Of a stretch of 64,000 bases of DNA, positions 24,185 through 27,458 are shown piece after piece. The stretch spans positions 1 through 64,000 of the forward strand of contig CAJNOJ010000046.1 in the NCBI GenBank assembly GCA_905250025.1, given 5' to 3'. The notes under the pieces are model-generated. The model did no database searches, had not been told where the DNA came from, and saw only the letters and a list, made by a program, of their open reading frames with translations. The translations under genes and the position numbers were made by a program. Numbering within the stretch: position 1 is the first letter of the stretch; each line of letters starts with the position of its first letter. The stretch is from Adineta ricciae. Lineage: Eukaryota; Rotifera; Eurotatoria; Adinetida; Adinetidae.

Positions 24185-25165
24185 ATGATGAAATATATTT
24201 TGTGTTCCTCTCTGTTCACTGCTTTAGTATCATTGTCACATTAATCGGATAAGTGTTCAGTAGACTCTTTATATTCCTCAATCGTAGAATATCTATCTCG
24301 TCGTATTACAGCTCTTTCGCAATCATTGAAACGATGCCGTGGTGATACAACGTGTGTGTTCATATCTGAAGTTACCGAATGTCCCTACTATTGGAACACA
24401 ACACTCATGAGACAAAACATATTGTAATTTCTACAGTTTCATCTTCATCTCCATTATCACATTTATCTCTTGCAGAGAAGACCGCGACGGAATTCCACTT
24501 CGTATTCAAATCCTGGTCAACGACGTCAACACCTGCACACCCATTGCTAACGCGGCTGTCACCATGTGGCACTGTGATGCAGGTGGCATCTACTCACATT
24601 ACATCCAAGCCAGTCAAAACGTTCAAAATCCACAAAAAGACAATTCTACATTTCTTCGAGGTACCGTCCTTCTTGCTCTCTCACTCTTTTCATTTCAATC
24701 ACCATGTTTAAACATGTAGGTATCCTGCTGACCGATGTGAATGGTCTTGTAACATTTGACACGATCTATCCAGGATGGTACATTGGCAGATCAATTCATA
24801 TCCATGTGAAAGTGCATCTTGGTGGAACTTATGTGAATGAATCGAGTTACTATTCTGGTGCGAAGTATGTTCATACTGGTCAATTGTTTTTCAATGATTC
24901 GTTCAGTGATCTGGTGAATCAACAGGCACCGTACACCAATCACACAGGTAGTCGCACGTTGAACAGCCAGGATGGTATCTATGCATTGACAAATGTGTAC
25001 ACGTTGCTGAATGTTCAATATATGAATTCAGACGGTGGCTTCAGTAGTGGTTTATTCACTTCAATAACTCTTGGTGTTACATCACTTGACAGTGAATCAA
25101 CCACATTATCATCAGTACCAACAACAACAACAACAGCAGCAGCAGCAGAATCAGAAAAAGACTGA
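24185..25165 (+). CDS. Secreted intradiol ring-cleavage dioxygenase, copy A (ends uncertain)
   Basis: Copy A of a tandem pair. The family opens catechol-type aromatic rings with non-haem Fe(III). Core exons 24312-24423, 24476-24660 and 24720-25165 encode the same catalytic core as copy B, including GIYSHY, YPGWYIGRS and IHIH, which supply the Tyr, Tyr, His, His iron ligands. A hydrophobic leader, MMKYILCSSLFTALVS, starts at 24185, but its GT donors do not match the phase of the acceptor at 24311. The true first exon may instead be near 24074, or the 5' end may be damaged. The conserved EGPYY motif reads ECPYY here. The tail after the core is Ser/Thr-rich and stops at 25165. A second frame then stays open to about 25408 with Thr/Pro/Arg-rich coding-like sequence, so the tail is either spliced or broken. 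Possibly a decaying gene with a restored core. Confidence 0.6.
24381..24986 (+). repeat. Near-identical duplicated block, left copy
   Basis: 606 bases matching 26629-27234 at every position except one (A at 24453, G at 26701). The block covers two introns as well as exons. Divergence on both sides begins abruptly. Confidence 0.95.
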
Positions 25166-26446
25166 TACAACTTAAGAAACAGCAAGCGAAACAACTTTAG
25201 TCACCACCACCACGTCACGTACAACAACTACTACTAAGCGTGGAAGACATCCAGATCGACACCCTCCAAGTAATCAGCAACCAGACCACGCGCCAAATCG
25301 TCCCAAACCTTGGTTCTCAACACGGTTTACAAAACCATCCACAACGTGGCCCAAGCCGTCATTGAACGAAGGGCGATTGGAATTTACCAGGAGTACAGAC
25401 GTTTTTTAAGAATTTTTCTCTGTACTAACTAGCATCTGCTGTGTTAACCCAGCATTCGTTTTGTTTGAATAGAAGTTTAATCAGTTTATGAACGTTAAAA
25501 AGATGCATACATAACGGACAAGAAACATTCGAAACTGATTATAGCACTGATGGGTGTACGCACTAATACAGTAGAAGACTTTTGGAGAAAATATAGAGAT
25601 CGAGTGGCAGACGTCACTTGATCTAATGGTATCAAGATTGTGTAAGAAGACGACATTAGAAAAAATTTCAAAACGTTCTATAAATTTCGTGTTTTTATCC
25701 ATTTCTTGATTTGGCTATCTACTCTAAACATCAGGTGAAATCGACGAAGCATCACTCTGATACTATACAAGGTTATTGTGGAGAATCTTATAAATTTTCT
25801 CTAGGAGTCCGTTTCATATCAGTTGAATGGGTTCTTCAAGTATCTCACTTATCCTATAAAATAATTATAAATGTAGTATTTTTAATGTTGTTTAATAGTA
25901 AGACTTCCTTTAGTAACTTTCTACCTAATGAAGAGAAAAGTTTAACATTACTACGTCTTCTAGATGTACTTTTTCTCCTTCCTTTCGTCTCGATCACAAT
26001 CAATATGAAAAAAGTTTTGTCCTATTATCTTGTTTTTCAATTTTCTCCTTTCGAAACTAACATGATTCATGCACTGGAATACCTGAATAATTTCTCAGTC
26101 ATGAGATGAAAGATAATGTTTCTCAAAAGAGTTTCAGTTCAAAATACGATTTCAAAAATAATCACACAGCCGAATGTACTTTTTTAACATTATCTTACAG
26201 ATTTTTTACTGACGATGTACTTTTAAAAGACTCAAAACAACCCACCATGTCATACACACCGTTTTATAGACTCTTCACTTTCAATGGTAATATTATATGG
26301 CTAGTCATCGGCTCGTTATATAAATGGATAGAATTCTGACGACAAAATTAATTGCGAATATTTGTCACAGAAACATCTCTATTTTCTATAGCTTTACACA
26401 TTTTTCATTGTCATTATACGGATACTAACATATTCTTGACACAACG
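25166..26446. other. Spacer between the two dioxygenase copies
   Basis: The first ~240 bases contain the coding-like Thr/Pro-rich second frame that may be the lost tail of copy A (about 25190-25408). The rest is AT-rich DNA with open frames of up to 132 codons that resemble no protein. It must contain the promoter of copy B. Confidence 0.5.
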
Positions 26447-27458
26447 ATGGCAAAATTCTTCGCCTTGTTCACCAAATTAACTGTTTTAATAACATTACTT
26501 CATCAATCCAGTAACTTTATCAGTATTTTGTTATATAAATTCATGTTTCTTGAGTATAGTCGCATCAGAATCGCTACAACGATGTCGTCGCGAGTCCACC
26601 TGTATTCTCACACCTGAAGTTACTGAAGGTCCCTACTATTGGAACACAACACTCATGAGACAAAACATATTGTAATTTCTACAGTTTCATCTTCATCTCC
26701 GTTATCACATTTATCTCTTGCAGAGAAGACCGCGACGGAATTCCACTTCGTATTCAAATCCTGGTCAACGACGTCAACACCTGCACACCCATTGCTAACG
26801 CGGCTGTCACCATGTGGCACTGTGATGCAGGTGGCATCTACTCACATTACATCCAAGCCAGTCAAAACGTTCAAAATCCACAAAAAGACAATTCTACATT
26901 TCTTCGAGGTACCGTCCTTCTTGCTCTCTCACTCTTTTCATTTCAATCACCATGTTTAAACATGTAGGTATCCTGCTGACCGATGTGAATGGTCTTGTAA
27001 CATTTGACACGATCTATCCAGGATGGTACATTGGCAGATCAATTCATATCCATGTGAAAGTGCATCTTGGTGGAACTTATGTGAATGAATCGAGTTACTA
27101 TTCTGGTGCGAAGTATGTTCATACTGGTCAATTGTTTTTCAATGATTCGTTCAGTGATCTGGTGAATCAACAGGCACCGTACACCAATCACACAGGTAGT
27201 CGCACGTTGAACAGCCAGGATGGTATCTATGCATCGACAAATGGATATACATTGATGGCTGTTCAATACGTCAATTCAAATAACGGATTTAGTAGTGGTC
27301 TGACTACAGCAGTAACACTTGCAGTCCAAGGATTGTCTTCGGCAACTACGACCACAGTAGCCTCCACTACTGATGATAGTCAGGAATCTACAACTTCGGA
27401 TTCCTTAAGTAGTTCTTGCAATGGGCGCGCTGGCGGTCGTCCCTTTTGGCTATGGTAG
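26447..27458 (+). CDS. Secreted intradiol ring-cleavage dioxygenase, copy B (intact)
   Basis: Exons 26447-26510, 26560-26671, 26724-26908 and 26968-27458 sum to 852 bases in frame, giving 283 residues. Residues 1-24 form a signal peptide (hydrophobic stretch FFALFTKLTVLITLLH), so the enzyme is secreted or extracytoplasmic. The core opens CILTPEVTEGPYYW and NILEDRDGIPLRIQILV, continues with AAVTMWHCDAGGIYSHY, and reaches YPGWYIGRSIHIHVKV. The four expected Fe(III) ligands are present: Tyr98, Tyr141, His147 and His149. KYVHTGQLFF matches the usual HTGQLFF strand. A Ser/Thr-rich tail ends GRPFWLW. This layout (signal peptide, intradiol core, Ser/Thr tail) is that of fungal secreted intradiol dioxygenases. 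Among animals, spider mites are known to carry such genes by horizontal transfer. The three introns here argue against contamination. Substrate unknown. Confidence 0.92.
26629..27234 (+). repeat. Near-identical duplicated block, right copy
   Basis: The partner of 24381-24986, offset by 2248 bases with one mismatch. Flanking exon sequence differs at many codons. Confidence 0.95.

Follow-up and report, generated by a model that had tools for sequence, protein, structure and literature searches.

The question raised by this locus is whether an animal genome encodes a secreted intradiol ring-cleavage dioxygenase that was taken over from a microbe. The window, i.e., the whole stretch of 64,000 nucleotides that was analysed, contains two tandem copies of such a gene, termed A and B. 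In the reading preferred here, to which a probability of roughly 80% is assigned, copy B works as an animal gene that is spliced and encodes a secreted Fe(III) intradiol dioxygenase; this gene was acquired from a microbe, duplicated and homogenised with copy A, the latter having lost its secretion signal.

Gene model and predicted product of copy B

Copy B is located on the forward strand at positions 26447-27458, with the ATG at 26447 and the stop codon ending at 27458. Its four exons were joined to an 852-nt CDS encoding 283 amino acids plus the stop codon. Exon 1 (26447-26510) carries the start codon and, as judged by hydropathy, a signal-peptide-like segment (MAKFFALFTKLTVLITLLHQS...), exon 2 (26560-26671) the TEGPYY motif, exon 3 (26724-26908) the iron ligand Y98 in WHCDAGGIY and exon 4 (26968-27458) the ligands Y141, H147 and H149, the conserved residues R144 and Q175, a Ser/Thr-rich tail and the stop codon. 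The introns of 49 bp (26511-26559, phase 1), 52 bp (26672-26723, phase 2) and 59 bp (26909-26967, phase 1) lie on the same strand and all have GT-AG boundaries, in agreement with the three spliceosomal introns of the initial annotation. Introns 2 and 3 are regarded as real and not as a product of chance, because bacterial homologues align without gaps once the exons are joined (RQNIL/EDRDG and FLRG/ILLTD). Intron 1 was placed by its splice sites and by the in-frame join of the signal-like exon to the catalytic domain. The GC3 of copy B amounts to 39% vs. 24-33% in the neighbouring genes, a difference that says little about the donor.

The protein matches the Pfam family PF00775 (Dioxygenase_C) with 37.9 bits at a curated cut-off of 27.3 (E 1.6e-9). 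The four Fe(III) ligands named in the initial annotation, Tyr98, Tyr141, His147 and His149, are numbered exactly and stand in register with the solved enzymes 6bdj/5vg2 and with the bacterial relatives. Furthermore, R144 and Q175 are invariant across an alignment of seven sequences; a second-shell role of Arg and Gln is known from protocatechuate 3,4-dioxygenase. The top relatives among solved structures are the two entries of the mite enzyme TuDOG6 (tetur07g02040; PDB 6bdj and 5vg2; E 1.6e-36 and 2.9e-36). Structures of catechol 1,2- and protocatechuate 3,4-dioxygenases were matched with E 3.5e-5 or weaker, and the NCBIfam equivalog models of the intracellular catechol/protocatechuate dioxygenases all scored far below their cut-offs on copy B. 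By these structure and NCBIfam comparisons, copy B is nearer to the extracellular DOG type than to the intracellular enzymes.

For the signal peptide, only hydropathy and the -3/-1 rule were used: hydrophobicity over 11 residues peaks at positions 5-15, and the residues S-I-A at 21-23 agree with the rule. The tail (residues 237-283) consists of 40% Ser/Thr. A signal-like N terminus and a Ser/Thr-rich tail are present as previously described. The sequence supports copy B as an intact, intron-containing gene for a predicted secreted-type intradiol dioxygenase.

As a working, spliced gene, copy B would encode an extracellular ('DOG'-type) intradiol ring-cleavage dioxygenase with a non-haem Fe(III) centre. 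After entry into the secretory pathway and removal of some 23 N-terminal residues as signal peptide, the product would fold as an intradiol domain, with Fe(III) held by its two Tyr and two His ligands. Catechol would bind to the metal, and O2 would open the ring between the two hydroxyls, resulting in a muconate-type product. That copy B opens catechol rings outside cells is the most likely function by analogy to the mite enzyme and its gut-expressed paralogues: TuDOG6 is reported to cleave catechol and 4-methylcatechol, and for the mite DOGs, secretion, expression in the gut region and activity of gut-expressed paralogues on plant phenolics are reported (PMC9167512). Like copy B, for which secretion is predicted, the spider-mite TuDOG family is of the secreted type, has the same four iron ligands and is multiplied in an animal genome; however, T. 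urticae has 17 paralogues, whereas the window holds one intact and one defective copy.

Copy A and the homogenised tract

Copy A (24185-25165, forward strand) is a tandem paralogue with an intact catalytic part and an apparently defective 5' part. The two copies are 2248 bp apart, and no further copies were found within the 64,000-nt window. An in-frame TAA at 24242-24244, inside the homologous signal segment, takes the place of a CAA in copy B, the intron-1 donor is lost at about 24249 by a change from GT to AT, and TEGPYY reads TECPYY. A functional but unsecreted enzyme was considered for copy A by means of 25 open gene models. Because none of these retains the whole exon homologous to the signal segment, copy A is treated as probably defective. 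It probably represents either a pseudogene or a form that is not secreted, and not an independent functional gene. Of the duplication claimed in the initial annotation, the tandem copies are real, but a second working gene is not upheld in view of the stop codon and the donor loss. Directly past the stop codon of copy A, a Thr-rich open stretch in another frame (25176-25409, forward strand) resembles a frameshifted continuation of the Ser/Thr tail.

Positions 24381-24986 of copy A, a tract that spans introns 2 and 3, match 26629-27234 of copy B (both on the forward strand) in 605 of 606 bp. In copy B, this tract comprises codons 45-210 with all four iron ligands. In its flanks, 40 of 138 aligned bases differ (~29%) vs. 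1 of 606 inside (Fisher p 1e-30). Since purifying selection does not hold introns and silent sites identical, either gene conversion has recently acted on a duplicate pair of greater age, or the tract is an artefact of the assembly. According to the preferred reading, the catalytic parts of both copies would have been homogenised by gene conversion after the duplication, and the secretion signal would have been lost in copy A. The tract would then neatly illustrate gene conversion at work on two copies of probable horizontal origin.

Animal context and microbial origin

The contig also encodes Arm repeats, a RIM-type zinc finger, laminin G and EGF domains, with animal-type genes on both flanks of the copy pair. 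Because these genes share the contig, the host is an animal. At 35.6%, the G + C content of the window coincides with that published for Adineta ricciae, a bdelloid rotifer (PMC5916493), which is a weak hint at the host. Scans with Rfam and for tRNAs gave no matches in the window.

Intradiol dioxygenases are described as restricted to bacteria and fungi with the exception of mites, and their horizontal acquisition was reported in tetranychoid mites (PMC9167512). For tardigrades, horizontally acquired intradiol dioxygenase clusters were reported as well (PMC5531438). The initial annotation had stated that the family is generally missing from animals apart from mites, which agrees with this literature once the tardigrades are added. 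Copy B is a further animal case beside the transferred enzymes already reported in these two groups. The clusters of Hypsibius dujardini resemble the window pair, likened by description only, in being tandem, in belonging to a meiofaunal animal and in their reported horizontal acquisition (PMC5531438). Within the literature library that was searched, no direct report of intradiol enzymes in rotifers turned up; in Adineta ricciae, foreign enzymes were assigned to benzoate and polycyclic-aromatic degradation pathways (PMC3499245).

That copy B was acquired from a microbe is very likely, mainly because the family is reported as restricted (PMC9167512, PMC5531438). The source would have been bacterial or fungal, and intron gain and tandem duplication would have followed the transfer. 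Of the horizontal acquisition from a fungal-type source proposed at first, a probable microbial origin is retained, with the restricted family and the animal neighbours in its favour, but not the fungal source specifically. If confirmed, the transfer would add another, perhaps independent, animal lineage to the small number for which uptake of ring-cleaving enzymes is reported, and parallel recruitment for catechol detoxification would become testable.

Bacterial or fungal donor and other explanations

Bacterial homologues were drawn from plasmid and prokaryote genome searches. The best matches to copy B are secreted Streptomyces enzymes with 45% identity and 202 bits (E to 1e-60), while TuDOG6 reaches 38.6% identity over 184 aa and 140 bits. 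Trees were calculated from the window pair, bacterial rows and the mite enzyme as the sole other animal sequence, without fungal sequences. In the first tree, 33 rows, most of them from Actinomycetes, form the sister group of the window pair (support 98/86). After removal of seven (most long-branched) rows, it joins the mite, weakly (58/34), and a clade of window and mite was not rejected by the AU test (p = 0.344), so that the phylogeny of the core left the donor undecided.

A fungal donor, as reported for the mites, comes just short of an even chance. Fungi possess secreted intradiol dioxygenases, the mite DOGs are reported to be fungal-derived (PMC9167512), and the mite enzyme is both the top solved-structure match and a partner of the window pair that the AU test does not reject; against this, bacterial sequences clearly outscore the mite protein in a comparison set without fungal sequences. 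The combination of signal peptide and Ser/Thr-rich tail had been taken as a fungal-type layout, but a specifically fungal layout is not supported: secreted enzymes of Streptomyces and other actinobacteria are similar in layout and score above the mite protein.

A bacterial donor with an actinobacterial-type secreted enzyme, independent of the fungal acquisition reported for mites, is possible rather than probable. Besides the higher identity and bit score of the Streptomyces enzymes and the position in the first tree, it is favoured by two features that copy B has in common with the Actinomycetes group, the motif PGWY and a long loop preceding HTGQ; in TuDOG6, the motif is PGHY and the loop in front of HIGQ is short. 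However, the window pair moves to the mite in the second tree, a grouping tolerated by the AU test, and fungal enzymes, being absent from the trees, may have the same loop and motif. The secreted enzymes of S. albiflavescens and of a Streptomyces sp. Caat 7-52 plasmid (43-46% identity over about 210 aa) share PGWY-GR-HIH, the long loop and an N-terminal export-type signal with copy B. They differ in an Arg-Arg (Tat-like) signal and in having no introns, whereas copy B has a predicted eukaryotic-type signal and three introns; the Caat 7-52 plasmid enzyme is also without the Ser/Thr-rich tail of copy B. The Streptomyces SACTE enzyme (PDB 4ilt, 4ilv) has the intradiol fold and the ligand motif in common with copy B but is a far more remote relative (E 6e-10 and 3e-9). 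It is rather doubtful that a non-mite animal lineage took the secreted enzyme from bacteria, added introns and a eukaryotic signal, and keeps the catalytic parts of the tandem pair identical by conversion.

An old animal or rotifer family, passed on vertically and missing from most animals through loss, or a single earlier transfer common to several animal lineages, is improbable. The reports from mites and tardigrades would fit it, as would an HGT-flagged 'Dioxygenase' of Adineta vaga with a best match in Brachionus (PMC12220480), which was not identified as intradiol; but the reported animal holders are scattered, and mites aside the family is described from bacteria and fungi only (PMC9167512). 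Contamination with fungal or bacterial DNA, or a false join in the assembly, is very improbable because the same contig carries animal genes, which flank the pair on both sides. Although a chimeric assembly could likewise yield an identical 606-bp tract, the three short introns are incompatible with bacterial DNA, and the two diverged copies are separated by 2.2 kb.

A viral carrier was not found, with two weak matches to faecal contigs in the phage search and one in IMG/VR. Relatives of the intradiol dioxygenase with ~31% identity are present on contigs filed as viral (MT835714.1 and one IMG/VR contig), which may be misfiled bacterial DNA. A further relative with ~33% identity is encoded at positions 1875-2645 of plasmid pArsBee4 of the honeybee-associated symbiont Arsenophonus apicola.
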